A stretch of 64,000 nucleotides of DNA from Pandoraea anhela (GTDB taxonomy: Bacteria > Pseudomonadota > Gammaproteobacteria > Burkholderiales > Burkholderiaceae), in assembly GCF_902459655.1 (NCBI RefSeq), contig NZ_CABPSB010000017.1:1-64000 (forward strand). Reading direction: 5' to 3'. Of this stretch, positions 1,658 to 22,300 are shown one piece after another. Position numbers and translations under genes: made by a program. The notes below the pieces were generated by a model. That model ran no database searches. It saw nothing but the letters and a program-made list of their open reading frames with translations, and was not told where the DNA came from. Positions within the stretch are counted from its first letter, which is position 1. The number at the start of each line of letters is the position of its first letter.

Positions 1658-1664
1658 CGTACGG

Positions 1665-1928
1665 TTATCGCTTTCCGGTTGGCGCGTGATTTGCTTTTAT
1701 CTTTTGGTAATACGTGCTCGCCCCGTCCTTCGACAATCCAGCCTCAGCGACAAACTGCGCGATGATCTCCTTCCGCGTTACCTGCTTGCGGCGCATCATC
1801 CGCTTGTAGACTTCCTTTGCGATCTGCATCTTCGTCTTGGTCTCTGATACCGACGAGCCAGCCTCGCCGTGATACGCCACGTCGTCACTACTTCTGCGTG
1901 AACCTGCATCATCAACATCGAGAATCAC
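1665..1928 (-). CDS. Small mobile-element protein with VTRKEII/GASTYYQKIK motif
   Basis: An 87-residue protein with a GTG start and a strong GGAGGTAATC ribosome site. The C-terminal half (KMQIAKEVYKRMMRRKQVTR, then LSKDGASTYYQKIK) matches a small family found in phages and plasmids that looks like a winged or simple helical DNA-binding module. The acidic, serine-rich N-terminus is probably flexible. It lies 65 bp downstream of the replication helicase on the same strand, with a 12-bp perfect hairpin between them whose last stem bases touch the ribosome site. Function unknown; a regulatory role is inferred. Confidence 0.6.
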   Translation of the reverse strand: MILDVDDAGSRRSSDDVAYHGEAGSSVSETKTKMQIAKEVYKRMMRRKQVTRKEIIAQFVAEAGLSKDGASTYYQKIKANHAPTGKR

Positions 1929-1936
1929 GATTACCT

Positions 1937-1969
1937 CCGGTGATGGTGAATTTCGACCACCATCACCGG
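1937..1969 (-). promoter_or_regulatory. 12-bp perfect hairpin abutting a ribosome site
   Basis: CCGGTGATGGTG (1937-1948) and CACCATCACCGG (1958-1969) are perfect inverted complements with a 9-nt loop. It sits between the primase-helicase stop and the GTG of the 87-residue gene. The last stem bases run into the GGAGG ribosome site, and no T-tract follows, so operator or translational control fits better than a terminator. Confidence 0.6.
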
Positions 1970-1993
1970 CCCCGTTGTGTCAGACAACGGTTT

Positions 1994-4900: not shown

Positions 4901-5059
4901 ATCTTTGTACTGAGCAGAGAATGCCACGCCCATGGAGATGACCTTCGCTAGATCTTCGCGGGTCATGTCGAACGGTTCCCACCCTTTCCCGAGGTTTCCG
5001 CCATTCGCGTTCTTGTTGATGATGTGCTGATTCAGCGAGACTGCAAAAGCCGTGCTCAC
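1994..5059 (-). CDS. Primase-helicase replication protein (origin-binding-protein type helicase)
   Basis: A 1021-residue multidomain protein. Residues about 50-160 resemble an archaeo-eukaryotic-type primase/PrimPol core (AVDVDHG with D70 and D72; HTDDHHRFRIVF; ARVFYGS). A CX2H/CX2C zinc motif follows (C234, H237, C259, C262). Then comes a superfamily-2 helicase related to origin-binding proteins: Walker A SPKGSGKT (337-344), Walker B VIILDEVEQV, motif V ASPAIGTGIDI and motif VI QQLSRVR. Together these suggest a self-contained replication initiator or primase for an integrative element or phage-plasmid. It is divergent from the integrase over 75 bp, which therefore hold both promoters. Confidence 0.8.
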   Translation of the reverse strand: MSTAFAVSLNQHIINKNANGGNLGKGWEPFDMTREDLAKVISMGVAFSAQYKDGQRSQANFERTGFIAVDVDHGMSWNDAIEHPYVKAHAALAYTTASHTDDHHRFRIVFQLSEPIVDAQRYRQVMVGLVGKFLADTACAEPARVFYGSRGCESVVFDGILDSSEIAQILLLADNGKIKEEAVAYVDSDGKEQTHKRKASSTSKHWLVKTTELRLARGGVVPLNQAEVRTPVYCPVHVDSRASAFVVHSSDGGGMGVHCVACGRTYWADRGSPTFDLHEYDRRVEKLIRESFDTWLREKNTNTDMFDFDTAPPGLLQERFLPNELIPLQDGVTIIKSPKGSGKTTVLRSVVDEAKRKGKSVLLMGHRQTLLRSMAQRLGLTCYFDLVTREGKEGDGTGEQGPVKQVKVNINPTRHYAVCMDSLQGRLNTQEDKYDVIILDEVEQVISHLLVSKTLRLDRRRIYNVFRYYLRNAKSVYLLDADMNAPTVIMLREILSDGKDRSYHVIQNTYPTGEGKEICVYQGDGHLRSVMEQMLVDGKRLYVCSNSKTEIDALEIRFQTLFGESKKIFKVTSDNSQDAEVQQFLSDVSSRILGCDVLLASPAIGTGIDITFPNGEALVDATFGIFKSEITTHFDIDQQLSRVRNPKEIHVWISPETADLETDPEVVKLDLVRYEPSLAHLESIEDTTGIRVIKANLSKEEDEFLTIFSYVTALQRASKNLLKNNFIDLRKSTGWVVNIIETDRELNREGRKGAAAASTVLAHRRAADVVIASAQVSDEVMNPIFDKLRHNEKLTPHEENLYMAYRVESYLGAPVTIEKVAEFDDGNLPRQVRQYLMLRNQSWARYSAELARYEQFKGGPPMLTDQNRDWDRIDMLRKLFISAGIYDDERGFLTEVEYSVVELEGFVEECRKSETRIQSLWAQDRVWRRDAFSKPAGLVGNLLELVGVAHDPKRSTNITLPTGKQRKIDYKQIISGTVERMERYMKAELERLREKSPDFEERARRAEADIAAAKASEEMEQ

Positions 5060-5134
5060 ACTGTGCCCCGTATTGTGGTTGTCTCTCGCCCAAACACCCG
5101 TGAAACTACCCCATCTTTCGACGGTGAACGCCTC

Positions 5135-6370
5135 ATGGGATTACACAAGCGAGTGAATTCTAAGAATTGGTTTTACAGCTTCCAGATCAAGGGCAAGCGT
5201 TTTCTGGGGTCGACTGGCACACCTAACAAGACCGTTGCGGCTCAGGTGGAGCGTGACGCTCGCGCCAAGGCTCATGCGCGGGTATTTCTTGGACAGGCGG
5301 ATGAAATTCGCTTGATGGACGCGATCCATCGATACATCGAATCCCGGAAAGACAAGCCCTACTGGCCTGCTATGGACAGTATCGCAAGAAAGATCAACGG
5401 TCACAAGGTGATACCCCGTGGTGGTGGCGTGCGTTCCTGTCACTCGTTGCCGGCTGACGTGATGCTTCACGAGTTGACAACCAGGGATGTCGAACGCCTG
5501 GTACAACACCGGAAGGTCGAAGGAAATTCACACCAAACGATCAAACATGAAATCGGGCTGATCCGCGCCGCCATGAATGAAGCCGCTCGGCTCGGATACC
5601 GAATCAATCGTGAGGTGATATTCCCCGTAATTCGCACCCAATCTCGTCTGCGCTACTTGGATCAGTCTGAGGAAGACGCCCTGCTTCATGCCCTTCACCC
5701 TGACACCCTGCTCACCGAGTTGATATCCGAAAAGCTTCACACCCCCGACATGGTTCGGATGGTGCAAGACAACTACGATCTCGCAGTGTTTCTGCTCGAC
5801 ACCGGTTGTAGGTATTCGGAAGCCGCGAACATCCCTTGGTCGTCCATCGACATCGAGAACCAGACGATTAATCTCTTCCGATCGAAGGTGCAGAACGAAA
5901 GCATTTTGCACATGACTCAGCGATTGCACGCGGTGATGTACCGACGAGCGACGGTCAGGTCTGCATCAGACCGTCATGTATTCAAGAATAAACAAGGGGA
6001 GTCCCGTGGATATTCCACAAACGCGTTCAAAAAAGCGTTCATCCGTGCTGGACTGAATACCCCAACGGTAGTGAAGGAACGTGGCGGGAAAGTCACCCTG
6101 CACACGCTTCGCCACACGTTCGCCAGTAAACTCGTGAGAGCGGGTATCAGCCTTTACGAAGTATCCGTCCTGCTCGGTCACTCAGACCCAAAGATGACGC
6201 AGCGATATGCTCACCTTGCCCCGAACGAAACCAGCCGGAAAGCGGTTCAGGTGATCGACAGGATGCTTTCACCTGACACATTGAGCTTGACAACAAATCT
6301 CTCCGTCAATCACCCGCCCCTGCGGGACGGGATGATTTCCGTCGACAGAACTCAACAGCGGTGCATGTGA
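5135..6370 (+). CDS. Tyrosine recombinase / integrase
   Basis: A 411-residue phage-type integrase. A DNA-binding N-terminus (MGLHKRVNSKNWFYSFQIKG) is followed by a core-binding domain and a catalytic domain with all expected residues: R226 (GCRYSEA), K251, H323 and R326 (HTLRH), H349 (LLGHSDP) and Y358 (QRYAHL). The start at 5135 fits the family; a longer frame from 5024 would overlap the divergent replication gene. It probably excises and integrates this element. Its stop codon lies inside a TGACGG-N3-CCGTCA hairpin (6367-6383). Confidence 0.85.
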   Translation: MGLHKRVNSKNWFYSFQIKGKRFLGSTGTPNKTVAAQVERDARAKAHARVFLGQADEIRLMDAIHRYIESRKDKPYWPAMDSIARKINGHKVIPRGGGVRSCHSLPADVMLHELTTRDVERLVQHRKVEGNSHQTIKHEIGLIRAAMNEAARLGYRINREVIFPVIRTQSRLRYLDQSEEDALLHALHPDTLLTELISEKLHTPDMVRMVQDNYDLAVFLLDTGCRYSEAANIPWSSIDIENQTINLFRSKVQNESILHMTQRLHAVMYRRATVRSASDRHVFKNKQGESRGYSTNAFKKAFIRAGLNTPTVVKERGGKVTLHTLRHTFASKLVRAGISLYEVSVLLGHSDPKMTQRYAHLAPNETSRKAVQVIDRMLSPDTLSLTTNLSVNHPPLRDGMISVDRTQQRCM

Positions 6371-6383
6371 CGGTGCCCGTCAC
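6367..6383. repeat. Palindrome TGACGG-N3-CCGTCA, copy 1
   Basis: GTGACGG-TGC-CCGTCAC is a perfect 7-bp stem spanning the integrase stop codon. The six-base core with a three-base spacer recurs at 6929-6943. A terminator role is possible, but the following bases are not a clean T-run. Confidence 0.55.
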
Positions 6384-6459
6384 ACTTCCTCAGTTTTCGT
6401 TCTGACTTCCATTTATTCCCGGAGTCACCCTCCCTCTCTCCGGGTTACCCCCACACCCC

Positions 6460-6514
6460 AAAGGCAGAGTGATTTTAATTTATATAGAAGAACTTTAAGA
6501 TGTCTGCCTTTTTT
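6460..6514 (+). repeat. 55-bp inverted repeat, left arm
   Basis: It runs from AAAGGCAGAGTGATTTTAAT to a TCTGCC-plus-T-tract end and matches the reverse complement of 6756-6810 with one mismatch. The arm itself starts AAAGGCAGA and ends TCTGCCTTT, so it can also fold as a 9-bp stem with a 37-nt AT-rich loop followed by eight T residues, which resembles a terminator for the integrase transcript. Confidence 0.85.
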
Positions 6515-6605
6515 TTGTTATGCGGGGACGGGTGTGATGGGGAAAAAATCGATGAGATCGTCCACTACGTTCGGAACAGTACGATGTCGCGTCCAAATTT
6601 CAGTC

Positions 6606-6625
6606 TGTCAGTGTCACTACTGACA
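6606..6625. repeat. 7-bp hairpin TGTCAGT/ACTGACA
   Basis: A perfect 7-bp inverted repeat with a 6-nt loop, located in the 241-bp core between the two 55-bp arms. Possible protein-binding site; no further evidence. Confidence 0.4.
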
Positions 6626-6755
6626 AGTCGCGTCAGACAACTCAGGACGATACGATCACCGGTCAGTCCCCTGTCAAACCTTGTTATTTCCTGAGTCCAT
6701 CCTTACTCCCACACTCAGCAGAGGGGAAGAATCCTTCCCGTCTTAACAAAAAAAC

Positions 6756-6810
6756 AAAAAAGGCAGACATCTTAAATTTCTTCTATATAAATTAAAATCA
6801 CTCTGCCTTT
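6756..6810 (-). repeat. 55-bp inverted repeat, right arm
   Basis: Reverse complement of 6460-6514 with a single substitution. Read on the minus strand it ends in TCTGCC and a T-tract, so it could terminate transcripts of the minus-strand lipoprotein operon. The two arms and core (6460-6810, 351 bp) have the size and layout of a MITE, but I see no target-site duplication. Confidence 0.85.
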
Positions 6811-6925
6811 TTGAATGGGAGCGGGATTTGGGAACAGAAAAAATGAAGGGGAACGTCGGTGGATGAAGGTGGGGTGTCACCCGGAGTATTGGTGTTGGAG
6901 AAAAGATCAGGACGAAGACCGGGGC

Positions 6926-6946
6926 GGATGACGGTTTCCGTCATCC
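6926..6946. repeat. 9-bp hairpin with TGACGG-N3-CCGTCA core, copy 2
   Basis: GGATGACGG-TTT-CCGTCATCC is a perfect 9-bp stem. Its 15-bp core repeats that at 6368-6382 with a different spacer triplet. The two copies flank the 55-bp inverted-repeat structure, which suggests a shared binding protein. Confidence 0.55.
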
Positions 6947-6974
6947 CAGATACCGGTCGAGTCCTGTTGACGGA

Positions 6975-7003
6975 GATCATCCCAACCGCAAGGGTGGATG
7001 ATC
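6975..7003. repeat. 8-bp inverted repeat GATCATCC/GGATGATC
   Basis: Perfect 8-bp arms separated by 13 bp, in the same palindrome cluster; the right arm contains the recurring GGATGA word. Confidence 0.4.
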
Positions 7004-7169
7004 GACGGCGACACCAAAAAAGAAACCCGCACACTACGGTACGGGTAAAAACCGTGCCCCAAGGGGGCGTTACAAGGATACGGGAAGCCATCCACGATTT
7101 CTCGTCGGATGGTTATCCATCATCACGTCTGATCCCGTTTGTTGAGAACAGACCTTGATCACACGGAAA

Positions 7170-7430
7170 TCACCTCCAGCAGTTGAACTTGGTCAGCTTC
7201 TCGCCGATTTTCTCCAGATACCGCTCTTTAACGTAATCAGGAGTGTTGGCAAGTGCGGCGTCTCGGAACATGCCAGATAGCTGACGACACATCGGGTTTT
7301 CTAATCGAATCTTGTATTGAATCCACTGATCAACCTGCTGTGGGGTCGGTGATCCGACTGTCTGTGCGGATACAGCACCACCGAGTACGCAACAGATCAC
7401 GAAAACTGAGAGTCGAATTGCTCGCATCAT
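7170..7430 (-). CDS. Small secreted protein of unknown function
   Basis: An 86-residue protein with a clear Sec signal peptide (RLSVFVICCVLGGAVSA, cleavage after about residue 22). The mature part is short and charged, with two cysteines (PMCRQL and FNCWR) that could form a disulphide. The start is the first of two adjacent ATGs and overlaps the upstream lipoprotein stop as ATGA, so the two genes are translationally coupled. It could be an entry-exclusion or lysis-type accessory protein of the element, but nothing in the sequence proves this. Confidence 0.6.
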   Translation of the reverse strand: MMRAIRLSVFVICCVLGGAVSAQTVGSPTPQQVDQWIQYKIRLENPMCRQLSGMFRDAALANTPDYVKERYLEKIGEKLTKFNCWR

Positions 7431-7807
7431 CGCTCCCACGGAAGTTTTGGACGGGGTACGTAGACCTCGACCACCTTCACCTTCGTGTCGGGTGACAAGT
7501 ACGCCATCGTCTCGCGGATCGTCTCGTTCGAGTTGATACGAGTATCGCCGAACGCCCGTTTCTCCAGAACGACGCCGCCGGCATCCTTTTGAATCACACC
7601 TCCACCTTGGAGCGAGTACCACCTCGCGCCGGACGTGTTCGTGATATCGCAGTTCACGTCGGGGGTGAACCATCCTGATTGCTTGCATACGACCTTCAGG
7701 TCAGGGTTGTCGTTGAACACCTTGATCTCTGGCGGTGACACGGCACCACACGCCGTGACGAGCGTGCAGGCGGAGACTACCCCGAGTACTGTTCGAAACA
7801 TCAACAT
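7427..7807 (-). CDS. Small lipoprotein
   Basis: A 126-residue protein with a lipoprotein signal (MLMFRTVLGVVSACTLVTAC; lipobox LVTAC, lipidated Cys at residue 20). The mature domain has two further cysteines (VVCKQSG and DVNCDIT) and looks like a small beta-rich fold. The ATG at 7807 has GGAG nine bases upstream. It is first in a two-gene operon with the secreted 86-residue protein and divergent from an XRE regulator. Function unknown; an envelope role during transfer or maintenance of the element is a guess. Confidence 0.6.
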   Translation of the reverse strand: MLMFRTVLGVVSACTLVTACGAVSPPEIKVFNDNPDLKVVCKQSGWFTPDVNCDITNTSGARWYSLQGGGVIQKDAGGVVLEKRAFGDTRINSNETIRETMAYLSPDTKVKVVEVYVPRPKLPWER

Positions 7808-7870
7808 GCTCTTGTTCTCCGTAGCTGATGGCTGGGCATGATGACCAGCGTCGGTTACGATATCCCAAGT

Positions 7871-7904
7871 TAGACTAACCCACAATAGGTTATTGAATAG
7901 TCTA
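7871..7904. promoter_or_regulatory. Inverted-repeat operator candidate in divergent promoter region
   Basis: TAGACTA (7871-7877) and TAGTCTA (7898-7904) are perfect inverted repeats 20 bp apart, enclosing a second AACC/GGTT pair. The site lies between the divergent lipoprotein and XRE starts, a natural place for autoregulation by the XRE protein. Confidence 0.5.
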
Positions 7905-7926
7905 TATCCGGTTCAAGAATGACCGG

Positions 7927-8178
7927 ATGCCGAACCCTATTCATGATCCGAAGTACCAAGTGTTCCGTCAGATGTTGTTGGATGCCCGCAAGGAGAAGGG
8001 GCTACAGCAGGTTGAGGTTGCGGAGAGACTTGGGAAGACCCAGTCGTTCGTGTCGAAGTACGAACGGGGAGAAAGACGCCTCGATTTTTGTGAGTTTATC
8101 GAGGTTGCTGCTGCGTTAGAAGTCGATGTGATCCAGTTTATTGGACGTTATCAACAACTGCTTAACCGGAGTATCTAG
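7927..8178 (+). CDS. XRE-family helix-turn-helix regulator (first of two)
   Basis: An 83-residue protein that is almost entirely a Cro/CI-type HTH domain (RKEKGLQQVEVAERLGKTQS, then FVSKYERGERRLDF). It likely represses its own promoter and perhaps the ParA-HEPN pair 95 bp downstream. It is a clear paralogue of the XRE gene at 10013: both share RLGK-x2-x-FV-x2-YE-x-G and a C-terminal YQQ. The two therefore bracket the ParA and HEPN genes. The ribosome site is weak (GACCGG). Confidence 0.75.
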   Translation: MPNPIHDPKYQVFRQMLLDARKEKGLQQVEVAERLGKTQSFVSKYERGERRLDFCEFIEVAAALEVDVIQFIGRYQQLLNRSI

Positions 8179-8273
8179 TCAGCATCGCTAAGCATTTAGA
8201 TTATCGTAGAATATCCTTTGCCACGCGGGTAATCGAGCGGGTTGGATTAGAAAAAATATCGAGGGGAACTTGC

Positions 8274-9314
8274 ATGACGAAGATAATTACCTTGTTCAAT
8301 CACAAGGGTGGCGTAAGCAAAACAACTACGACGTTCAATCTGGGCTGGATGCTCGCTTCGCTCGGCAAACGTGTGCTCCTTGCCGACTTCGACCCTCAAT
8401 GCAACCTCACCGGTATGGTGTTGGGTTTCAAGGGAATCGAAGATTTAGAGGAAACGTATAAGTCTGATCCGCCGAACAACGTCAAAGACGGACTTGCGCC
8501 GGCATTTGAATCTAAACCTCGACAGATTGTCGGCGCCGAGTGCGTTCAGGTTCCAAGCAACGACAACCTCTTCCTGTTGCCCGGCCACATTGGCCTCGCA
8601 GAATACGAAACCACTCTCGGTGTAGCCCAAGAACTCAGCGGCTCATTACTCGCTCTGCGAAACCTTCCTGGATCATTACGGTTTCTTTTGGATGCAACTG
8701 CGGAAAAGTACGCGATTGATTATGTGCTGGTCGACCTTAGCCCTAGCCTCGGCCCGATGAACCAGAATCTGTTGATGACTTGCGATCACTTTATCGTACC
8801 TCTTCACCCAGATTACTTCTCTTCGATGGCCCTCAGTTCGCTGTCAAAATCTCTACCACGCTGGGCAGCGTGGGCAAAGACTGCTTATAGCATTGCCGTT
8901 TTGAGGGATGCGGATTACCCATTTCCCGAGCCCAAAGCCAAGTTCATTGGCGCGGTCGTCCAGAAGTACCGTCCCCGGAATGGGCAACCGAGCGCAGCCT
9001 TCCAGCGCTGGGTTGATCAACTAGCGAGGGGGCTTCGCAATGAGCTCATTCCTAGTCTGGAGTCGTGTGGCTTATTGAATTCTGATGAGTTCGAAGAGAA
9101 AGCTGGATTTGCTCCGTACGAACCACTCCTCAATGTCGCAGACTTCAACAGCCTAATTGCCCAGTCTCAGGAACACCTGGTTCCAGTGTATGCCTTGACG
9201 GCAGAAATGCTTCAACAGGCAGGCGCGGTGTGGGATAGTACGAAGGAAAGTATGCAGAAGTTCGAAACGGCATTCCGCGATTGCGCGAACAAAGTAATTA
9301 GCCTTACGACATGA
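8274..9314 (+). CDS. ParA-family ATPase
   Basis: A 346-residue ATPase with the deviant Walker A motif KGGVSKTT (residues 11-18), DFDPQCNLTG (switch/A' motif) and VLVDLSPSLGPMNQN (Walker B). A ribosome site GAGGGG precedes the ATG. Family members position plasmids, chromosomes or large complexes using ATP-dependent dimers on DNA or membrane. No ParB or parS is visible here. Instead the gene overlaps an HEPN gene by ATGA, so a role as the sensor or carrier of a toxin-like partner is a reasonable inference. The C-terminal 80 residues are unusual for a plain partition ATPase. Confidence 0.8.
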   Translation: MTKIITLFNHKGGVSKTTTTFNLGWMLASLGKRVLLADFDPQCNLTGMVLGFKGIEDLEETYKSDPPNNVKDGLAPAFESKPRQIVGAECVQVPSNDNLFLLPGHIGLAEYETTLGVAQELSGSLLALRNLPGSLRFLLDATAEKYAIDYVLVDLSPSLGPMNQNLLMTCDHFIVPLHPDYFSSMALSSLSKSLPRWAAWAKTAYSIAVLRDADYPFPEPKAKFIGAVVQKYRPRNGQPSAAFQRWVDQLARGLRNELIPSLESCGLLNSDEFEEKAGFAPYEPLLNVADFNSLIAQSQEHLVPVYALTAEMLQQAGAVWDSTKESMQKFETAFRDCANKVISLTT

Positions 9315-9943
9315 CCCCGATTGCACATTTCGAATCAATTTGGGGACGATGTGAGGAGTTAGCCGCAATGCATGCGTATTTGGCTAAGCAGCTTACGAAT
9401 GCATTGCGTCCGGATGAATTGCTTCGTGCCGAATGGGTCACTCGGGTTAGCGCTCTTGACTTGTACGTTCACGAACTTGTCGCCAAGGGGATGCTGGACA
9501 CGTTTGAGGGCCGCAAACCGGCCTCAAACGGATATCTCCGCTTCCAAGTTGCTAACGACGTTTTAATGAGAATCCGCTCAGCGCCTTCGCCCAATGCTGC
9601 TCGCCAGGCATTCGACTTGGAAGTTCGGACGAGACTCGGATACGTTACGTATCAAGACCCGGATAAGATCGCGGAGGGTGTGCGCTTGTGTTCCGATGTG
9701 GAACTGTGGAATGACGTAGCCATCGCACTAGGTGCTACTCAGGCAACGAAGATCGTGAAAGCGAAGGCCATCAAGCGAGAACTCTCCCTGATTGTAGAAC
9801 GCCGAAACAAGATCGCCCATGAAGGGGACTTGCAGCCCCTGCCCCCCCGCGTCCCTTGGGTAATAGATCGAGCGGATCTTCAACACGTCGCGCGTTGTAT
9901 CGAAGGGATCGTTCGTGCGATAGATAGTATCGTCACCGCTTAA
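9311..9943 (+). CDS. HEPN-domain protein (RiboL-PSP-HEPN-like), probable RNase partner of ParA
   Basis: A 210-residue, mostly helical protein. It carries the HEPN catalytic signature R-x4-H as RNKIAH (R165 to H170) in ERRNKIAHEGD, and an earlier helical segment (RVSALDLYVHELVAKGM) typical of RiboL-PSP-type HEPN proteins. HEPN domains with an intact R-x4-6-H motif are usually metal-independent RNases in toxin-antitoxin, CRISPR and abortive-infection systems. The start overlaps the ParA stop as ATGA, implying coupled translation and probably a complex. The exact family is from memory of motif style; RNase activity is inferred. Confidence 0.7.
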   Translation: MTPIAHFESIWGRCEELAAMHAYLAKQLTNALRPDELLRAEWVTRVSALDLYVHELVAKGMLDTFEGRKPASNGYLRFQVANDVLMRIRSAPSPNAARQAFDLEVRTRLGYVTYQDPDKIAEGVRLCSDVELWNDVAIALGATQATKIVKAKAIKRELSLIVERRNKIAHEGDLQPLPPRVPWVIDRADLQHVARCIEGIVRAIDSIVTA

Positions 9944-10012
9944 GCTCGACGTTGGTTGAAATGCAGTGGTAATTGCATGAAGGTTCGATCTTCATCACGA
10001 GGATCGCACCTC

Positions 10013-10255
10013 ATGAACTTCTTTCCCCATCACAAACGCAGCATCGACGCCCTCGCAGAGATCCTCATCACCACTCGGCAAGCGAAACGCTTGACAACAA
10101 AACAGGTTGCCGCCCGACTTGGCAAACCTGAAGCATTCGTTCTCGACTACGAATCCGGCAAGTACCGGCTTGATCTTCCCGAACTTGTGGATATCGCAGA
10201 TGCCATTGGGATCGACATGGTTGAACTCATCAATCTCTACCAGCAACGAATGTGA
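10013..10255 (+). CDS. XRE-family helix-turn-helix regulator (second of two)
   Basis: An 80-residue Cro/CI-type HTH protein (LTTKQVAARLGKPEAFVLDY, then ESGKYRLDLPELVDIADAIG). I chose the ATG at 10013 because GAGG lies ten bases upstream; an earlier ATG at 9977 is possible. It is a paralogue of the regulator at 7927 and ends the ParA-HEPN cassette 69 bp after the HEPN stop, in the same direction. It may be an antitoxin-like repressor of the cassette. Confidence 0.7.
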   Translation: MNFFPHHKRSIDALAEILITTRQAKRLTTKQVAARLGKPEAFVLDYESGKYRLDLPELVDIADAIGIDMVELINLYQQRM

Positions 10256-10282
10256 ATGCCTCGCGCCAGAGCAGCGTCTAAC

Positions 10283-11155
10283 TTACGCCATAGGCTCAGA
10301 CATTGTCCGCTGAATCCGCTCCATCAAATGTCGGAAATGCATATGATCCGATTTTTCTTCACAGCGCATCATAAGATCCTCCGTTTCTCTCGCCAACACG
10401 TGAATCTGCTCCATCCTTTCAGCTAATGGAACGCGTTTCGACTCCCTCAATCGTTCCAAAGAATTCGAGATTCTCTCGTACTCGATGGCGGTGATAGAAC
10501 CGCGTCGGGGGGATCTCACTCTTTCATGCATCGTGATCTCCATCAACTTCCTCACTTCTCGCATTTCAGCCTGAAGAACCTCCAAGGCCAAGCCCTCCTT
10601 TCCGCCTTTGAGATCAGGGATCTTTGCTGCGCTATTGAGCGCCAAGAGTTTTACGATTGAGTTAACGTTCCCTGCATCTCCATCCGCAGCCACAGTTGCC
10701 TCGATCGCGTCCTTCAGCTCCCCCTGCGTACGGAGTACGTCGTGATAGCGCATTTCTTTCGAATATTCGAGATATCGAAGCGGCGCAATATCAAAAATCT
10801 TAGGGGTCCCTATTTCCTGAATAATCACAACAGGTCGATCAAATGCCTGCCTAATTCCAAGCTCAAAAAGTACATTCGGATTTCTACTACTTAGATCGCA
10901 TATTGCAATGGGTGCATCGATAAGTTTTTTCAGTATGTCCAGATGAATAAGATTGGTCGCTTTTACTTCATCAGCACGGATCGCTTGATACCCTGCTTTC
11001 TCACAGGATGGGTAAATCACGTTGTCATAAACGTGCTTAAAATGCCCCTGAGGATAACCATCGACATCCGCGATTGGCATTATTACGAAGCAATCTTTCT
11101 TTTTATCTTTATCAGCCACATCCCCCCCTATCTTTTCCTTTATTTTTCCTATCAA
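10283..11155 (-). CDS. TIR-like / nucleoside 2-deoxyribosyltransferase-like protein
   Basis: A 290-residue protein. Residues 20-120 form a Rossmann-like domain: DCFVIMPIA, then AGYQAIRADE, ICDLSSRNPNVLFELGI and PVVII. The DLS-x-NPNV-x-ELG motif with E98 is typical of nucleoside deoxyribosyltransferase-like and TIR-like domains, some of which cleave NAD or nucleotides in anti-phage systems. The C-terminal half is a charged coiled-coil-like region of unknown role. It is AT-rich and converges on the XRE/ParA/HEPN cassette 27 bp away. An effector function is inferred, not shown. Confidence 0.65.
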   Translation of the reverse strand: MIGKIKEKIGGDVADKDKKKDCFVIMPIADVDGYPQGHFKHVYDNVIYPSCEKAGYQAIRADEVKATNLIHLDILKKLIDAPIAICDLSSRNPNVLFELGIRQAFDRPVVIIQEIGTPKIFDIAPLRYLEYSKEMRYHDVLRTQGELKDAIEATVAADGDAGNVNSIVKLLALNSAAKIPDLKGGKEGLALEVLQAEMREVRKLMEITMHERVRSPRRGSITAIEYERISNSLERLRESKRVPLAERMEQIHVLARETEDLMMRCEEKSDHMHFRHLMERIQRTMSEPMA

Positions 11156-11713
11156 CAGCGATCATTTTCGGCGATTCAGAAGGTTAGCATAAACCTATCC
11201 CACCGTACCCTGATCAAACCTCGACCAGTTTATCCACTCAAGATCCAACGCTGCCTGAGCTTGACAGAGCTTCGCTAGGCCAACAACCGATTACCGTGCC
11301 GCACTTTATCCTCATGCCAGTCAATCCGCGTGGGACATGGATCGGATAACAGATCACATAATTATTATATTTTTCTCTTCTCGTTATCCCACGGGGCAGG
11401 TCCACCCGCGACGACCAGCTGTCGGCGCCACCGTAATCGCCGGTTGAGGTACGTCCTTAGATAGATTAGCTGCAAGCCTGGATCGGTAAATCCGCGTATT
11501 CGGTGATGTTGCTAAAGGTCCCAACGAAAGGTGGGGGAACTCCTGGGCACAAGCTGGCGCAAAAATTTGCAAGTCCGATCTCAGAAGTATAATTTTTTGG
11601 AATGCGGAACGTTACGAGCCGAAAAATACAACCCGCCCAAGGTCACGTTTGGCAAAAAATGTGAGGCGGCAAAAACTCCCGCTCGCCGCCCTCATCTCTA
11701 TGTCTTCTTCTGC
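11156..11713. other. Non-coding stretch without recognised features
   Basis: 558 bp between the TIR-like gene and the SHOCT gene. The part next to 11156 must hold the TIR-like promoter and is AT-rich. The rest (11,280-11,700) shows no convincing frame, RNA gene or repeat; short frames there lack ribosome sites and family motifs. It may be decayed island DNA. Confidence 0.5.
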
Positions 11714-12133
11714 TCAAATACTCGCGAGAATCTCGTCGCGTCGCTTCTGGAAATCTTCGGGGCTGATGAGTCCCTTCTCGTGCAGATCCTTCAGCTTCCG
11801 AATACGGTCCTCGAGCGAGGCTGACGAACTTGCTGCTGGTGGCGTTTGCGCAGTGTTGCCTGCTCCGGCACATGCTGCATTGATGTCATTCATCAATGCC
11901 ACCTCATCAAACAGCGTGTTGCCCTTCTTGTCTCGCGTGAGATTTGAATAATGTCGACCGAGAGCAAGCGTTTCTTGCTTGATATCGGCGTTTGTAGGGG
12001 TTCCTTTCAGCTTTTCCAGAGACGAGATATACCGCTGACGCGCAGCTTCTCGTTCCCGCGCTGCCTTATTCCCAGCCATAACACCAGCGACAATTATCCC
12101 AATGACTGCTACAAGAAATATCCACCCCATCAC
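11714..12133 (-). CDS. Membrane-anchored SHOCT-domain protein
   Basis: A 139-residue protein with an N-terminal transmembrane helix (MMGWIFLVAVIGIIVAGVMA), a charged linker and a C-terminal SHOCT module (LKDLHEKGLISPEDFQKRRD). SHOCT is a short helical hairpin thought to mediate oligomerisation, common at the ends of membrane and phage-associated proteins. It lies alone at the right end of the AT-rich island, on the minus strand. Its exact function is unknown. Confidence 0.7.
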   Translation of the reverse strand: MMGWIFLVAVIGIIVAGVMAGNKAAREREAARQRYISSLEKLKGTPTNADIKQETLALGRHYSNLTRDKKGNTLFDEVALMNDINAACAGAGNTAQTPPAASSSASLEDRIRKLKDLHEKGLISPEDFQKRRDEILASI

Positions 12134-12397
12134 GTTCCCCTTGTTATCTGGTCACATCAATATTTTCGGTTTTACTGATTACCCAACGCCGAAGCAGGCC
12201 ACCAATCGACATCTAAGCTGGTTTTGGTCATGCAGTGTATGACACGCTCGACGCTTACATCAAGGTTCCCTACACCCCGGTCTTCTTCTCTTGAATCTGT
12301 CCTTTAAATGGATTTTTGCCACCGGACCCACACAAAGCGACCAAGGAAGCCCCAAAACCGCCTGAAACCGGACCAACGGGAATCTAAAAAAGCGCCT

Positions 12398-12423
12398 GCG
12401 ATGGGAATCGATCCCAAGGCTCT
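12398..12423 (-). repeat. Inverted partial copy of the tRNA-Gly 3' half
   Basis: On the minus strand, 26 bases beginning AGAGCCTTGGGATCGATTCC match the variable-loop to T-arm part of the adjacent tRNA-Gly with two mismatches, in the opposite orientation. One mismatch falls in the T-stem and one in the T-loop, so it cannot be a functional tRNA. It is probably a footprint of past integration or rearrangement. Confidence 0.65.
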
Positions 12424-12459
12424 CACCCCAGAAGCGCACCCACCTACAAAACGCGCAGA

Positions 12460-12489
12460 TTGCCAAACGCCACAATCCCCGCGTAGAAT
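12460..12489 (+). promoter_or_regulatory. Promoter of tRNA-Gly
   Basis: TTGCCA (-35) and TAGAAT (-10), 18 bp apart. The predicted start falls 4 to 6 bases before the tRNA 5' end. Confidence 0.6.
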
Positions 12490-12499
12490 GGCACCCTTC

Positions 12500-12573
12500 G
12501 CGGGCGTCGTATAATGGTAATACCCTAGCTTCCCAAGCTAGAGCCGTGGGTTCGATTCCCATCGCCCGCTCCA
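12500..12573 (+). tRNA. tRNA-Gly (anticodon CCC)
   Basis: Full cloverleaf with acceptor GCGGGCG/CGCCCGC, D-arm with GTATAATGGTAATAC, anticodon stem CTAGC/GCTAG with loop TTCCCAA (anticodon CCC), T-arm TGGGTTCGATTCCCA and an encoded CCA end. It reads GGG codons. It marks the right border of the AT-rich island, but its 3' end faces away from the island, so classical 3'-end integration does not explain the island's position. Confidence 0.95.
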
Positions 12574-16496: not shown

Positions 16497-16522
16497 TTCA
16501 CACCTCCGGTTTCGTTAGCCTT

Positions 16523-16554
16523 CGTTTCGTCGTTTCGTCGTTTCGTCGTTTCGC
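16523..16554. repeat. Four tandem 8-bp repeats
   Basis: CGTTTCGT three times followed by CGTTTCGC. It lies in the predicted 5' untranslated leader of the small-peptide transcript. Confidence 0.7.
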
Positions 16555-16602
16555 GTTTGTCGCGAGTTGGCTCAAAGATAAACCTCGGGTCGGGAGCTGA
16601 AA

Positions 16603-16818: not shown

Positions 16819-17616
16819 ATGGTGCAAGTGTCCCGGCGTCCCGTTATCAGCGCCCCAACACTCATACGCTCGCTGGCCCGCCTGAGCGCGTTCACGCCCC
16901 CCGAGGCCGCGCCGTCGCTCTCGGACCGAATGAGCCAGTGGCTGGGCTGGACCGACGCCATCGCGTTGTCGTCGGCCCTGAAAGCCCACCCGCCGGCGGC
17001 AACGCCCGGCGCGCGTCCGGCTGCGCAGGACCCGGCGAGCGAACTCGCACGCGTGCGCGCCGAGCTGGCCGCCGCCATCGCCCGCGATTGCGGTCTGGCC
17101 GCCGCGCCCGGCGGGCAGATTCGCGCACTGAGCGCCGCCGAGCGTCAACGCGCCGCGTCCTTCGCCGAATTCCCGGCGTATCGACAACGCTACGCGACCT
17201 CGCAGCAGACGATGGATACGGCGATTAGCGCCCTGCGCACCCGCCTGCGGGCTCAGTTGGCCACGCAGTCGCCAGACGCTGCCCGACTCGCCAGCGTCGA
17301 CGCCGTTATGGAACGCGTGATGGGCGCACGTGAGCGCACACTGCTGTCGAGCGTGCCGAATTTGCTCGAAGGACACTTCGTGCGGCTGCGCGATACGGAA
17401 CAGGCGGCAATGGCCGCTCCGCGCGTGCCCGGTGCACCGCCGCTCCCCCCGGCCGGCACCTGGCTCGACACCTTCCACCGGGATATGCAGAGCGTTTTGC
17501 TCGCGGAACTGGATATACGCCTGGAACCGATCGAAGGGCTGATCGCCGCCCTCGCCTCGGTCGCCACCGGCGAAAACGTTATTGAACCCGGACAACATGA
17601 CCCGTTACCTCGTTGA
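16819..17616 (+). CDS. DUF3348 protein, first gene of the stator-like operon
   Basis: A 265-residue, Ala/Arg-rich helical protein without signal peptide or membrane segment, matching the DUF3348 family of Burkholderiales and Xanthomonadales. The N-terminal VQVSRRPVISAPTLIRSLAR and the C-terminal DTFHRDMQSVLLAELDIRLE are the most characteristic parts. It overlaps the DUF802 start by 20 bp, so they are probably co-translated. Its job is unknown; a cytoplasmic partner or assembly factor of the DUF802/OmpA membrane complex is the natural inference. Confidence 0.8.
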   Translation: MVQVSRRPVISAPTLIRSLARLSAFTPPEAAPSLSDRMSQWLGWTDAIALSSALKAHPPAATPGARPAAQDPASELARVRAELAAAIARDCGLAAAPGGQIRALSAAERQRAASFAEFPAYRQRYATSQQTMDTAISALRTRLRAQLATQSPDAARLASVDAVMERVMGARERTLLSSVPNLLEGHFVRLRDTEQAAMAAPRVPGAPPLPPAGTWLDTFHRDMQSVLLAELDIRLEPIEGLIAALASVATGENVIEPGQHDPLPR

Positions 17617-20600
17617 TCTCGTTGCCTTTGTCGCAGGGCTGGCCGTCGTCGGCTGGATCGCCATCGGCTATGCCGGCACCAATACCCTCGCGCTTGCCGT
17701 CGCGCTGCTGATCGCCGCCGTTTATCTCATCGGCGCGCTCGAACTCAAGCGCTTCCATCAGTCGACGAACGCTCTCGCCAATGCCGTGGCCGGCCTGAAC
17801 GCTCCCCCCGCCTCGCTGCCGTCATGGCTCGACACGCTGCCCGCCGGATTGCGCACCGCCGTGCGGCTGCGCGTGGAAGGCGAACGGGTGGGCCTGCCCG
17901 GCCCGGCCCTCACGCCTTACCTCGTTGGCCTGCTCGTGCTGCTCGGCATGCTCGGCACGTTCCTCGGGATGGCCGCCACGCTGCGCGGCACCGGCATCGC
18001 CCTCGAAGGCGCGACCGATCTGCAAGCGATTCGCGCCTCGCTCGCCTCGCCGGTCAAGGGTCTCGGCTTCGCGTTCGGCACGTCGGTCGCCGGTGTCGCG
18101 ACCTCGGCCATGCTCGGCCTGCTCGCCGCACTCGCGCGCAAGGAACGCGCCCACGTCGTCCAATCGCTCGACGCCCGCATCGTCACGACGCTGCGCGGTT
18201 TCTCCCAGCAGCATCAACGCGAAACCACGCTGCAACTGCTTCAGCAGCAAGCGACAGTCATGCCGGCGCTCGTCGAGCGTCTGCAAGACATGATGGCCGC
18301 GATGGAGCGCCAGAGTCAGGCGCTCGGCGAACGTCTGGTCGCGAATCAGGACGCGCTGCACGCCAAGACGGACGCCTCCTACGCACAACTGACCAGCGCG
18401 ATGCAGCAGTACCTGAAGGACAGCGTCGCCACCACGGCAAGCGCCGCTGGCGCGGCGATTCGTCCGGAGGTGGAAGCGACGATGGCCAGCCTCGCGCGCG
18501 AGACCGCCACCTGGCACCAGACCGTGTCCAACGCCGTGCAAGACCGCATGGATGGCCTGTCCGATCGCTTCGAAGCGACGACCACCCGCGTGGCCAACGT
18601 CTGGAAGGATTCGCTCGACGCGCAATTGCGCACCAATGAATCGCTCGCCACCGACCTGCGCGCCGCGCTCGGCGACTTCACGCAAACGTTCGAGACCCGC
18701 TCGTCGCGACTCGTCGACGATGTCGCCGCCCGACTCGAATCGGCGACGACGCACGTCGGCAATGCGCATGCGGACGTCGCGAAAACATGGGAGGCGTCGC
18801 TCGTCACGCAACAGCGCAGCAACGACGCGCTCGCCGAGAACCTCGGCGCCGCTCTGGCGCAATTCGCGCAGACCTTCGAGACACGCTCGGCCAAGCTGGT
18901 CGACGATGTTGCCGCACGCCTCGACGCCACAACGGGCCACGTCAGCGCTGCACATGCCGGCATCGCGCACACATGGGAGACGTCGCTCAGCACGCAACAG
19001 CAAACGAACGACGCGCTCGCCAAAGCCCTCGGCGCCACGCTCGCACAGTTCACCGAGTCGTTCCAGGCACGCTCTGCCGGTCTGCTCGCAGACGTCGCCA
19101 CACGTCTGGACAGCGCCACCGGCAGCATCGCCACGGCACAGACGACCGTGGCCGAAGCCTGGGCGCAGGCGCTCGGTCAGCAGCAGCAATCGCACGACGC
19201 CCTCACGCAATCGCTCGGCACTGCGCTGGAGCGTTTCGCCCAAACGTTCGAAGCGCGCTCCGGCGCGTTGCTGGGCGACATCGCCGCCAAGCTCGACACC
19301 GCGAGCGGCAACGTGAGCGGCGCGCACGCGCGCGTTGCACAGGCATGGGACCAGTCCATCGCGTTGCAGCAGCAAGCCAATGCCGCGCTGAACACCGAAC
19401 TATCCGCAGCGCTCACGCGCTTCACCGACACCTTCGAGCAGCGCTGCGCACATCTCATCGACGGCGTGAGCCAGCGCACCGAAGGCGCAATGCACAGCGT
19501 GTCGGAGACGGCCGCCGTCGTCTCCGGCGAATGGCAGCAGGCGATCACCGCGCAGCAATCGGCCAACGATACCCTCGCCCGCGATCTCGCCAACGCCCTC
19601 ACCCGCTTTGCCGAGACGTTCGAAGCGCACGCGTCGCAGTTGCTGCAAAGCGTCTCCGCGCAGATGGATTCGACGTCTGCCAACGTCGCACAGACGTGGC
19701 GCGACGCCGTTGCGGCGCACGCGCGCACGAACGAGCGTCTGGCCGACGGCAATCAGCAACTCGTCGCCGCAACCACTCAGGCGTTCACCGAACACAGCGC
19801 CTCGCTGCTCCAAGCGCTCAGCGCCGCCAACACCGCACATCACGACGCCACCGCCGAGCGCGAGACGCAACGCCTGTCCGCCTGGACCGAAACGCTCGAA
19901 GGCACGCTCGCCACGCTGCGCGCGGAATGGCAGCAAGTCGGCGCGCAAACGGCCAGCCAACAGCAGGCGATCTGCGACACGCTGGCCCGCACCGCATTGG
20001 AGATGTCCGAACAGACGCGCGCCAACGCCAGCGACACCCTCGCGGAAATCTCGCGTCTGGTGCAAACGGCGTCCGAAGCGCCGAAGGCCGCCGCCGAGAT
20101 CATCGGCGAACTGCGTCAGAAGCTCTCCGACAGCATGGTGCGCGACAACGCGATGCTCGAAGAGCGCTCGCGACTGCTCGACACGCTGGGCACACTACTC
20201 GACACCGTCAAGCACGCGGGCAACGAGCAACGCGCCGCCGTCGACGAACTGGTGACGACATCCGCCCAGTTGCTGGAGCGCGCCGGCGCGAATCTGGGCG
20301 AGGCGCTCGCCGCGCAAACGGAGAAGCTCACGCAGGCATCCGCACAAGTCACCGGCAGCGTGATCGAGATCGCGAGCCTGGGCGACGCCTTCGGTGCGGC
20401 CGTGCAATCGTTCGGCGAATCGAACACGCAATTGCTCGAACACCTGCAACGCATCGAAGCCGCGCTCGACAAGTCGATGGCGCGCAGCGACGAACAACTC
20501 GGCTACTACGTCGCGCAGGCGCGCGAAGTCGTGGAACTGAGCGTGATGTCGCAGAAGCAAATCCTCGAGAATCTTCAGGACATGGCGCAAACGCGTGCAC

Positions 20601-20656
20601 ACGCCGCATTGGCCGCAACCTCGCAGGCGGCGCAACCGGGTAGCGTGGCAGCATGA
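17597..20656 (+). CDS. DUF802 protein: MotA/ZorA-like membrane protein with 62-residue repeat tail
   Basis: A 1019-residue protein. Four membrane segments lie in the first 190 residues (around 2-25, 29-49, 110-130 and 155-180), with a LVLLGMLGTFLGMAATLRG segment like MotA/ExbB/ZorA proteins. From about residue 336 come six tandem repeats of 62 residues, each opening with Trp and containing a QQ-x2-ND-x-LA...F-x2-TFE pattern, then a long coiled coil. This matches the design of a ZorA-type stator whose tail reaches into the cytoplasm. The ATG at 17597 is used; a TTG at 17582 is the alternative. The stop overlaps the OmpA start. Confidence 0.8.
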   Translation: MTRYLVDLVAFVAGLAVVGWIAIGYAGTNTLALAVALLIAAVYLIGALELKRFHQSTNALANAVAGLNAPPASLPSWLDTLPAGLRTAVRLRVEGERVGLPGPALTPYLVGLLVLLGMLGTFLGMAATLRGTGIALEGATDLQAIRASLASPVKGLGFAFGTSVAGVATSAMLGLLAALARKERAHVVQSLDARIVTTLRGFSQQHQRETTLQLLQQQATVMPALVERLQDMMAAMERQSQALGERLVANQDALHAKTDASYAQLTSAMQQYLKDSVATTASAAGAAIRPEVEATMASLARETATWHQTVSNAVQDRMDGLSDRFEATTTRVANVWKDSLDAQLRTNESLATDLRAALGDFTQTFETRSSRLVDDVAARLESATTHVGNAHADVAKTWEASLVTQQRSNDALAENLGAALAQFAQTFETRSAKLVDDVAARLDATTGHVSAAHAGIAHTWETSLSTQQQTNDALAKALGATLAQFTESFQARSAGLLADVATRLDSATGSIATAQTTVAEAWAQALGQQQQSHDALTQSLGTALERFAQTFEARSGALLGDIAAKLDTASGNVSGAHARVAQAWDQSIALQQQANAALNTELSAALTRFTDTFEQRCAHLIDGVSQRTEGAMHSVSETAAVVSGEWQQAITAQQSANDTLARDLANALTRFAETFEAHASQLLQSVSAQMDSTSANVAQTWRDAVAAHARTNERLADGNQQLVAATTQAFTEHSASLLQALSAANTAHHDATAERETQRLSAWTETLEGTLATLRAEWQQVGAQTASQQQAICDTLARTALEMSEQTRANASDTLAEISRLVQTASEAPKAAAEIIGELRQKLSDSMVRDNAMLEERSRLLDTLGTLLDTVKHAGNEQRAAVDELVTTSAQLLERAGANLGEALAAQTEKLTQASAQVTGSVIEIASLGDAFGAAVQSFGESNTQLLEHLQRIEAALDKSMARSDEQLGYYVAQAREVVELSVMSQKQILENLQDMAQTRAHAALAATSQAAQPGSVAA
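18602..19711 (+). repeat. Intragenic 186-bp repeats coding for 62-residue units
   Basis: Trp-to-Trp spacing is 62 residues for five consecutive units and 55 for the sixth. The units diverge in sequence but keep TFE and the hydrophobic pattern, so they are old and under selection for length. Confidence 0.8.
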
Positions 20657-21330
20657 GGGACGGCATGAGGGAGGAGGTCGACGTCGATATCGCAGACGGC
20701 GACATCGGTGCCGCCGCGCCGACCTGGGCCGTCTTTGGCGATCTGATGTCGGTGATGCTCGGCGCGTTCGTGCTCATCATGCTCGGGGTGATCGGCATGC
20801 AGATCGAACTGTCCGCCAAGCTCGAACGCGAGGTGAGGGAGCGTCAGGTCGAGACGCAACGCCGCGAGACGCTTGAAAAAGCACTCGCCGGGCCGCTCGC
20901 GGGCGGTCGCGTCACGCTGGTGAACGGTCGTATCGGCATCAGCGGGAACGTGCTTTTCGCGCTGAACTCGGATCAACTGCAACCGCAGGGTCGCGAAGTG
21001 CTCCGAAGCCTCGCCGCTCCGCTTGCCGCCTATCTGCGTGCCAGCGACGAGATCCTCATGGTCAGCGGCTTTACCGACGACCAGCAAGTGCGCGAGACGA
21101 ACCGTCGATTCGCGGATAACTGGGAATTGTCGGCGCAGCGCGCGCTCACCGTCACGCGCGAGCTGATCGCCGCCGGCGTGCCGCCGTCCTCCGTCTTCTC
21201 CGCCGCTTTCGGTGCGGAACAACCGGTAACGTCGAATGCCGACGAAGCCGGTCGCGCGAAGAACCGGCGCGTGGAAATCGCACCGATGCCACGCAGCAGC
21301 GCCAGCAACGCGGGCAAACCGAATGCCTGA
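20653..21330 (+). CDS. OmpA-family MotB/ZorB-like protein
   Basis: A 225-residue protein with a short N-terminal cytoplasmic part, one membrane helix (VFGDLMSVMLGAFVLIMLGV) and a periplasmic OmpA-like peptidoglycan-binding domain (about 90-215: LFALNSDQLQPQG, GFTDDQQVRETNRRFADNWE, NRRVEI). D30 in FGDLM sits at the position of the ion-carrying Asp of MotB and ZorB. It starts within the DUF802 stop (ATGA); a second ATG at 20665 with GAGGGACGG upstream is possible. It likely forms the plug/anchor half of an ion-driven complex with DUF802. Confidence 0.85.
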   Translation: MRDGMREEVDVDIADGDIGAAAPTWAVFGDLMSVMLGAFVLIMLGVIGMQIELSAKLEREVRERQVETQRRETLEKALAGPLAGGRVTLVNGRIGISGNVLFALNSDQLQPQGREVLRSLAAPLAAYLRASDEILMVSGFTDDQQVRETNRRFADNWELSAQRALTVTRELIAAGVPPSSVFSAAFGAEQPVTSNADEAGRAKNRRVEIAPMPRSSASNAGKPNA

Positions 21331-22300
21331 CATGCGCGACGCCCGGCCCCCGATGCATGAACACCCGACGCCAGCCGACGAAACGGTCACGCCCGATCGC
21401 CCTGAAGCCGCGCACGAGTCGGACACCTTGACGCAGGCGTCGGATCTTCCGAGGCAAATATACGCGCAAGCGCACGCGCAGGCAGAAACCACCGACGCCA
21501 TTGCTGCCCCCCTCGCGCGCCCTGTCGCGGAACAACTCGCCGCATGGCGCGATGGGGGTGTCGATAAGCGCGACCCGGTTCGGTTTCATCGCATCGAAGC
21601 GCTTTCGCTGCGTATGCACGCGTACGACGGCGACGTGCGCCGCGTACTGGAAACCCGCCTCGGACGGCTGACCGCCGAACTTGCGAAATCGTTCGACGGC
21701 CCGCCGCCATCGTCTGTGACGCGCGAGGCCCGGGCATCCGACGCCGCCTCGCCGCTCGTCGCGCTGACGACGGAGATTGCGCAACGCGTCGGCGTGCGCG
21801 AGTTTCCCACGCCATCGGCCGCGCCCACCACGACCGCGCGCGCGCCCGCACACGCGGCGCCTGGCGCTGCGGTGTCCCCGAAGCGCCCCGTCGCGCCGAC
21901 CGCCCCTGCACCGGTGGCGATCACGCCGACGGTCATCGCGACGGACGACGCCTTCGAAGACCTCGACGTGCTCGAATACTTCCGTGAGACGTGGTCGAAG
22001 CTGAGCACCGACGGCAATCTGCGCCAGTCGCTCGCGCAAGTGCCCGAAAACGCCGGACCGCTCAATTCCAGCCATCTCGTGCATCGTGCGCTGTCGCTCA
22101 TGCACGACGTGTCCCCCGATTATTTGCGCCATTTCCTGCGCCATGCCGACGCCCTGTCATGGCTCGAAGACATGGAAACCACCGGTGTCTTCGGCAACAA
22201 GAGCGCCGCGCGCCGCAGCGAGCGCCAAGCCGACGCGCGCGAAGGCGCGCTGAAGCGTTCTGGTCGTGACGCGTTGCGGATTGCGCGACGGTTGGCGTAA
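21323..22300 (+). CDS. DUF2894 protein, last gene of the stator-like operon
   Basis: A 325-residue soluble protein with a Pro/Ala-rich middle (about residues 140-200). Conserved blocks are VDKRDPVRFHRIEALSLRMH and a C-terminal LEYFRETWSKLSTDGNLRQS with LRHFLRHADALSWLEDME. Family DUF2894, found in this same four-gene order. The start at 21323 overlaps the OmpA stop by 8 bp; ATG at 21332 or 21353 is also possible. Unknown function, presumed partner of the membrane complex. Confidence 0.8.
   Translation: MPDMRDARPPMHEHPTPADETVTPDRPEAAHESDTLTQASDLPRQIYAQAHAQAETTDAIAAPLARPVAEQLAAWRDGGVDKRDPVRFHRIEALSLRMHAYDGDVRRVLETRLGRLTAELAKSFDGPPPSSVTREARASDAASPLVALTTEIAQRVGVREFPTPSAAPTTTARAPAHAAPGAAVSPKRPVAPTAPAPVAITPTVIATDDAFEDLDVLEYFRETWSKLSTDGNLRQSLAQVPENAGPLNSSHLVHRALSLMHDVSPDYLRHFLRHADALSWLEDMETTGVFGNKSAARRSERQADAREGALKRSGRDALRIARRLA

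Follow-up and report, generated by a model that had tools for sequence, protein, structure and literature searches.

A Zorya type III operon of Pandoraea anhela and the repeat-built shaft of its ZorA

The DNA analysed here, a 64,000-nucleotide stretch of Pandoraea anhela (contig NZ_CABPSB010000017.1; hereafter the window), contains at 16819-22300 an operon of four overlapping genes, all on the + strand, in the order DUF3348-DUF802-OmpA-DUF2894. The operon is a complete Zorya type III system, a further member of an already described kind. The best explanation of the whole, which we hold with considerable confidence, is that such a system forms an ion-driven membrane motor whose cytoplasmic partners most likely engage the tip of the long ZorA tail. 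Two features go beyond the open-licence literature that we found, namely the near-universality of the system in its genus and the quantised length of the ZorA shaft; no report of either was found there.

Anatomy and identity of the operon

All four proteins match type III profiles of PADLOC-DB. The DUF3348 protein (16819-17616, 265 residues) matches ZorG3 (E 8.9e-90) and Pfam PF11828 (E 3.8e-80). The DUF802 protein, encoded by zorA3 (17597-20656, 1019 residues), matches ZorA3 (E 0, best 1392 bits), and its Pfam DUF802 match (E 4.4e-73) is spread over seven stretches. The OmpA-domain protein, encoded by zorB3 (20653-21330, 225 residues with one membrane helix), matches ZorB3 (E 1.6e-112), NCBIfam NF006547 (PRK09040, E 9.4e-113) and Pfam OmpA (E 4e-18). 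The DUF2894 protein (21323-22300, 325 residues if it starts at ATG 21323) matches ZorF3 (E 5.2e-90) and Pfam PF11445 (E 2.6e-48). Adjacent zorA and zorB genes are flanked by DUF3348 and DUF2894 genes, which is the arrangement that marks type III.

The cited part of Payne 2021 (PMC8565338) reports 6,401 such gene clusters, named there Zorya type III, and a copy from Stenotrophomonas nitritireducens that reduced plaque formation in E. coli by one phage or more. Given this report and the PADLOC matches, the kind is known and its function described in outline. An initial annotation, made from the sequence alone, had recognised the four overlapping genes, as Pfam matches to all of them bear out, but was wrong in stating that the operon had no described function. 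In the cited parts of the literature ZorF is the DUF3348 protein and ZorG the DUF2894 protein (PMC8565338, PMC11890865); PADLOC-DB (PDLC00652-00658) has the names reversed, with ZorG for DUF3348 and ZorF for DUF2894, and we therefore use the domain names.

The start of zorA3 is probably ATG 17597 rather than the called TTG 17582, because for three of the four ZorA3 profiles the match starts at residue 6 of the open reading frame (ORF) from TTG 17582. For the DUF2894 gene we take ATG 21323, which lies 8 bp short of the zorB end, as a provisional start in place of 21236; in the long ORF from 21236 the profile matches do not set in before residues 81-94. With the adopted starts, successive genes overlap by 20 bp, 4 bp (ATGA) and 8 bp. 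The same gene order was found in 40/40 loci from 40 other genomes of the family, picked for having a match, and in all six class-level matches outside the family, so the four-gene arrangement is not chance. Among 80 named loci DUF2894 is present in all and DUF3348 in 75, the remaining five being truncated by a contig end.

Set beside Zorya type III in the cited part of PMC8565338, the operon has the same ZorA and ZorB with flanking DUF3348 and DUF2894 genes and does not differ in kind; this copy has a 1019-residue ZorA with a shaft of 62-residue repeats. With Zorya type I, represented by Shewanella ZorAB (PDB 8VVN; cited part of PMC11890865), it shares the MotA-like ZorA core, the long C-terminal tail and a ZorB with an Asp and an OmpA-type domain. 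Type I also has ZorC and ZorD, whereas the four proteins here are ZorA3, ZorB3, ZorF3 and ZorG3. The ZorAB motor is likewise shared with type II; with NCBIfam ZorA_2 this ZorA scores 37 bits against a cut-off of 100 (E 2.2e-9). Type II differs in its ZorE nickase and in a ZorA tail that is shorter (residues 100-378; cited part of PMC11890865). Neither ZorC and ZorD nor ZorE was found among the four operon genes or the near neighbours, which are a TetR gene, a major facilitator superfamily (MFS) transporter, trmB and uppP.

The probable motor core and its cytoplasmic partners

The membrane core of ZorA (residues 5-180; 17609-18136, + strand) has four hydrophobic segments in a Kyte-Doolittle scan (5-23, 30-48, 109-127 and 162-180), in agreement with the approximate count in the initial annotation, and conserved GT (120-121) and TS (162-163) pairs. 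T121, T162 and S163 are invariant in 22/22 aligned sequences, and the motifs LLGMLGTxLGM and GTSxAG occur in 114 and 115 of 116 ZorA. ZorB has a single hydrophobic segment (31-49), the candidate ion-binding Asp30 in FGDLMSVML (codon 20740-20742, + strand) and an OmpA domain (residues 101-205; 20953-21267, + strand; Pfam PF00691), all as first annotated. The Asp is kept in 121/121 loci; a stricter motif with Ser or Thr after DLM holds in 118, and the other three read DLMA. According to the cited part of PMC11890865, the equivalent Asp (D24 in type I, D21 in type II) packs against a Ser/Thr ring in 5:2 complexes.

A profile of the ZorA N-terminus (22 sequences) matches the solved type I ZorA, 8VVN chain C 147-217, weakly (E 0.0057). 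For ZorB, a profile of 23 sequences, 216 positions long, matches 8VVN chain B with its positions 9-202 (E 1.9e-6); many MotB/OmpA structures match it as well. By sequence only, ZorA has the MotA/ExbB-like membrane core with a Ser/Thr ring that characterises Zorya, and ZorB has the corresponding helix with Asp and the OmpA-type peptidoglycan-binding domain. The ZorAB/MotAB-like, defence-like motor with two partners that had been proposed at the outset is supported by the ZorA3, ZorB3, ZorF3 and ZorG3 profiles, the 8VVN matches and the ion-path residues. A lack of likeness between the DUF802 N-terminus and MotA/ExbB would have spoken against it, and at the sequence level this was not what we saw.

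A MotA/ExbB-like membrane core with an OmpA-domain partner would also suit a stator of the flagellar or Ton/Tol type accompanied by extra genes, and the ion-driven design and the Asp in the B-subunit helix are indeed shared with MotAB, ExbBD and TolQR. Unlike these, the ZorA here has a long coiled-coil shaft and dedicated DUF3348 and DUF2894 partners. By these tests the operon is not the host's flagellar or Tol/Ton stator, because ZorA gives no match to Pfam MotA_ExbB (PF01618) with a limit of E 1, and the six PF01618 genes of the host genome all lie on other contigs. ZorB also falls far under the NCBIfam MotB-type cut-offs shown (e.g. MotD, 88 against 283 bits) and passes that of NF006547 (375 against 194), and the neighbours searched (TetR, MFS, trmB, uppP and a protein of the SDR (short-chain dehydrogenase/reductase) family) include no flagellar or TonB gene. 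A stator of that sort is thus highly improbable.

The two partners are most likely adaptors or regulators of the motor rather than DNA-cutting effectors, because neither has a recognised nuclease or helicase domain; the same role is proposed for both in the cited part of Payne 2021 (PMC8565338). The DUF3348 protein is predicted to be all-helical (AlphaFold2, mean predicted local distance difference test (pLDDT) score 82.5), and the DUF2894 protein to be helical in its N- and C-terminal parts, between which the linker is poorly conserved (mean pLDDT 66.5).

If the operon is a type III Zorya motor, five ZorA and two ZorB would assemble in the inner membrane, a stoichiometry taken over from types I and II, and ions would move past Asp30 in ZorB, opposite the ZorA ring of Thr/Ser. 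On a disturbance of the envelope, as in phage injection, the OmpA domain of ZorB may grip the peptidoglycan, a step that follows the type I hypothesis recounted in the cited part of PMC12904381. This grip would license rotation of ZorA and its long coiled-coil shaft, and it would most likely be the constant distal tip, rather than the length of the shaft, that engages DUF3348 and DUF2894. Rotation, the docking of both partners at the tip and the output of the motor are what we infer here.

Several points weigh against this picture. The ZorA match to 8VVN is weak, the MotA_ExbB profile does not recognise ZorA, the only 5:2 structures come from types I and II, and a fold search gave no informative match for the DUF3348 or the DUF2894 protein. 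The whole DUF2894 protein evolves fast in Pandoraea, with a ratio of non-synonymous to synonymous substitution rates (dN/dS) of 0.283 (0.076 for its last 110 residues). Finally, defence systems are usually patchy, whereas this operon is nearly universal in its genus.

Length and composition of the ZorA shaft

Self-comparison places six 62-residue copies in the window's ZorA at residues 339-710 (18611-19726, + strand), so the 62-residue tail repeats of the initial annotation are real; in the DNA they are visible as a period of 186 at 18611-19043 (Tandem Repeats Finder). We compared 109 ZorA sequences, after removing identical ones and one locus (L219) whose frame is open to the contig end. They range from 697 to 1229 residues. 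An internal repeat was detected in 74 and none in 35, and 18 of these 35 repeat-free proteins measure 695-702 residues. In 61 of the 74 repeat-bearing proteins the length equals 698 plus a whole number of the protein's own unit, within 3 residues, where 7.6 would be expected. When the base length was scanned from 640 to 759, 698 was best with its 61 fits (scan mean 6.4). The sequences are related, so these counts are not independent events, and short-read assemblies may miscount repeats.

The units follow lineage. Unit 62 occurs in 20 ZorA, all from Pandoraea, and unit 87 in 33, from Cupriavidus, Paraburkholderia, Caballeronia and other relatives. Four ZorA have unit 80 (one Burkholderia, three of genus g35), four have unit 69 (two Ralstonia, two of genus g48), and the rest have units of 29 (3 sequences), 51 (2) and 124 (2), plus singletons. 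The arrays also sit at different places. By their medians, for which loci were not made unique and one Bordetella locus was counted under unit 62, unit-62 arrays start near residue 336 and end about 322 before the C-terminus, and unit-87 arrays start near 435 and end about 165 before it. Unit-80 and unit-69 arrays start near 420 and end about 200 before the C-terminus; the corresponding positions are 446 and 218 for unit 29, and 473 and 171 for unit 51. Because arrays of different units lie at different places, there have been several independent shaft expansions in separate lineages.

Three MAFFT comparisons had placed the insertions at one common hotspot, residue 437 of the 698-residue form. 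This was most likely an artefact of gap placement, and we dropped the idea because direct location of the repeats puts the arrays at different sites by lineage. Nor was it informative to express the units as 7a + 11b, a form that fits any length above 59. Every unit found in at least two ZorA makes whole turns at 3.60-3.67 residues per turn, and unit 103, found once, does not; the test is weak, as 45% of lengths from 20 to 129 also pass.

The length rule has exceptions. Thirteen of the 74 repeat-bearing proteins miss it by more than 3 residues, among them 7 of the 20 with unit 62, which miss by 4 to 13. Compared with one 698-residue form, the window's own ZorA has, besides its repeats, 11 extra C-terminal residues and a 7-residue insertion. 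Five of seven Achromobacter ZorA are 1076-1229 residues long without a clear unit, and therefore have either diverged repeats or another route of lengthening.

Arrays of units with two or more members leave at least the last 164 residues free, and no array was found to start before residue 273. The lack of repeats in the membrane core is partly by construction, because repeats were sought from residue 230 on and arrays located from residue 200. Conservation among repeat-free ZorA, in 25-residue blocks, is 0.97-0.98 over the third and fourth membrane segments, 0.66-0.75 over the shaft (326-475) and 0.82-0.93 over the distal part (476-675). In the window's protein the conserved distal tip covers residues 916-993 (20342-20575, + strand), with 0.82-0.91 per 13-residue block over 116 ZorA C-termini.

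In 20 repeat-free loci (one a duplicate) the hydrophobicity of the shaft has its strongest period at 3.67 residues per turn (12 loci), 3.675 (seven) or 3.56 (one), with a median power of 14.8 against 7.8 for the 99th percentile of shuffles. The median over 94 longer ZorA is 3.655. This periodicity is as expected of an 11-residue coiled coil, for which we use the label hendecad.

Elsewhere the repeats were not seen. The same test found none in the five ZorA-I-like ORFs checked (563-781 residues; of eight found, all below the model cut-off), a small control, or in six type III ZorA from outside the family. Writing of types I and II, the cited part of PMC11890865 notes that the members of any one Zorya family keep much the same component size; type III ZorA in this bacterial family differs. 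The solved type I ZorA, at 696 residues, is close to the 698-residue type III base; it is a single sequence and the agreement may be coincidence.

Distribution and inheritance of the operon

DUF802 was found in 31 of 32 Pandoraea genomes, a count that takes in the window's own, and in 1 of 29 other relatives; the one Pandoraea genome without it is G003, of 1.2 Mb. DUF3348 occurs in 279 of 398 family genomes. Counted by genus, with a RecA search as the list of all genomes, it is present in 31/32 Pandoraea (g1), 60/60 of g35, 15/16 of g48, 10/11 of g49, 3/3 of g37, 2/3 each of g39 and g40, 53/59 of g44, 51/59 of g3, 48/58 of g34 and 4/8 of g32, and absent from all 60 of g36 and all 26 over thirteen genera with few genomes. 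At the class level it is found in 7/274 genomes, again with the window's own. In these bacteria the operon behaves like a core locus. Two assemblies showed irregular matches: G017 (completeness 89%, contamination 4%) shows DUF3348 twice, along with DUF802, on contigs C38 and C47, possibly through contamination, and G011 has DUF802 matches on contigs C12 and C14, one at a contig end, probably from an assembly break in the repeats.

Such a distribution raises the question of whether the main role of the operon in Burkholderiaceae is that of a housekeeping motor of the envelope, for instance in envelope-stress sensing or cell-wall maintenance, with phage protection in E. coli secondary. Its near-universality in Pandoraea, g35, g48 and g44 fits this, and type I restriction (HsdR_N), by contrast, is in only 54 of the 150 genomes of a smaller family draw, 5 of its 15 Pandoraea among them. 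However, DUF3348 is missing from many small genomes (g36 and the 1.2 Mb Pandoraea) and from some larger ones (8/59 in g3, 6/59 in g44, 10/58 in g34), it is rare in the class, and a related type III system did protect E. coli from phage (cited part of PMC8565338).

Inheritance bears on the same question. Within Pandoraea, at least two flanking ORFs are shared by 340 of 351 locus pairs (27 loci, five repeating the same genomes), and trmB and uppP (NCBIfam names) lie downstream in 19 and 18 of 20 fetched loci. The corresponding pair counts are 101/253 in Paraburkholderia and 11/36 in Cupriavidus. Distances in a DUF3348-ZorA-ZorB tree correlate with those of GyrB at r 0.82 in 20 Pandoraea (reached by 0/1000 permutations), at 0.35 in 19 others (1/1000) and at 0.61 over all 39. 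The two trees have 13 well-supported splits in common; of the 20 Zor splits with good support, 5 conflict with GyrB. From these counts, correlations and conflicts, inheritance is vertical within Pandoraea, with exchange at depth, as read from the sequences. The poor agreement with GyrB and the changing neighbours outside Pandoraea indicate movement between lineages over the long term, which speaks against a housekeeping role as the Pandoraea synteny and tree speak for it. An exception to the common neighbourhood is G025 (locus L080), whose diverged operon copy is without trmB and uppP neighbours. This 4.5 Mb genome, filed in the same genus, has a DUF3348 of 46% identity and a 701-residue ZorA without repeats, and its GyrB groups outside the other Pandoraea.

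Median dN/dS over 20 Pandoraea is 0.059 for ZorB, 0.077 for ZorA 1-230, 0.055 for the distal part of ZorA and 0.129 for DUF3348, values that point to purifying selection on the operon in this genus. The neighbouring housekeeping genes, at 0.104 (trmB), 0.115 (uppP) and 0.081 (MFS), are at a similar level, which speaks for a housekeeping role. With the evidence on both sides we consider a mainly housekeeping role unlikely, though worth keeping in view.

At the other extreme, the operon could be an ordinary horizontally mobile defence gene set without special feature. PADLOC catalogues type III members, the incongruence with GyrB is deep, and a mobile island lies 4-17 kb upstream. However, the operon is near-universal and syntenic in Pandoraea, its near neighbours (trmB, uppP, the TetR gene and the MFS transporter) are not other defence genes, and the island has its own integrase and sits beyond the TetR-MFS pair. 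We consider this reading quite improbable, and for Pandoraea it is disfavoured.

The island occupies roughly 1-12573 of the window, limits that are our guess. It includes a serine recombinase (64-1149, - strand), a Herpes_ori_bp/ResIII-type helicase match (1994-5059, - strand), a phage integrase (5024-6370, + strand) and a tRNA-Gly gene (12500-12573), a possible attachment site. At 8274-9943 a ParA-like ATPase overlaps a RiboL-PSP-HEPN protein (Pfam E 2e-8). Together the two genes resemble a defence module or a toxin-antitoxin pair, for which PADLOC gave short matches only, at the ParA end. A TIR-effector-like protein at 10283-11155 (PADLOC Effector/TIR, E 6.1e-7) has no Pfam match at 0.001. 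Outside the island, a short direct repeat of cgtttcgt-like units was seen by eye at 16500-16560, about 260 bases upstream of the operon, and a few plasmid records of Klebsiella, Neisseria and Aeromonas match some part of a 7.5 kb query.

Returning to the type III motor, we suggest tentatively, as a possibility more doubtful than not, that in Burkholderiaceae it is a core envelope-surveillance motor with a modular shaft, lengthened independently from a 698-residue ancestor. If so, units of 62, 69, 80, 87, 51 or 29 residues would have been added at different sites while the membrane core and distal tip stayed constant, and shaft length would be a tuned, lineage-specific parameter, of cytoplasmic reach or torsional compliance for example, and not the fixed ruler to which the published remark on component size in types I and II would point.

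In the open-licence literature found, type III is the one Zorya type that has neither a structure nor a known effector. The rule of 698 plus a number of units supplies naturally occurring shafts of several lengths, all of the same system and from close relatives, which could show whether a Zorya motor needs a set tail length, a helical register or just an intact tip. Because the system is near-universal and its shaft quantised, the role of the Zorya tail is directly testable. That it is near-universal in Pandoraea and g35 also raises the question of whether certain 'defence' systems belong to the core machinery of the cell, and is a caution against treating type III in these bacteria as immunity specific to strains.

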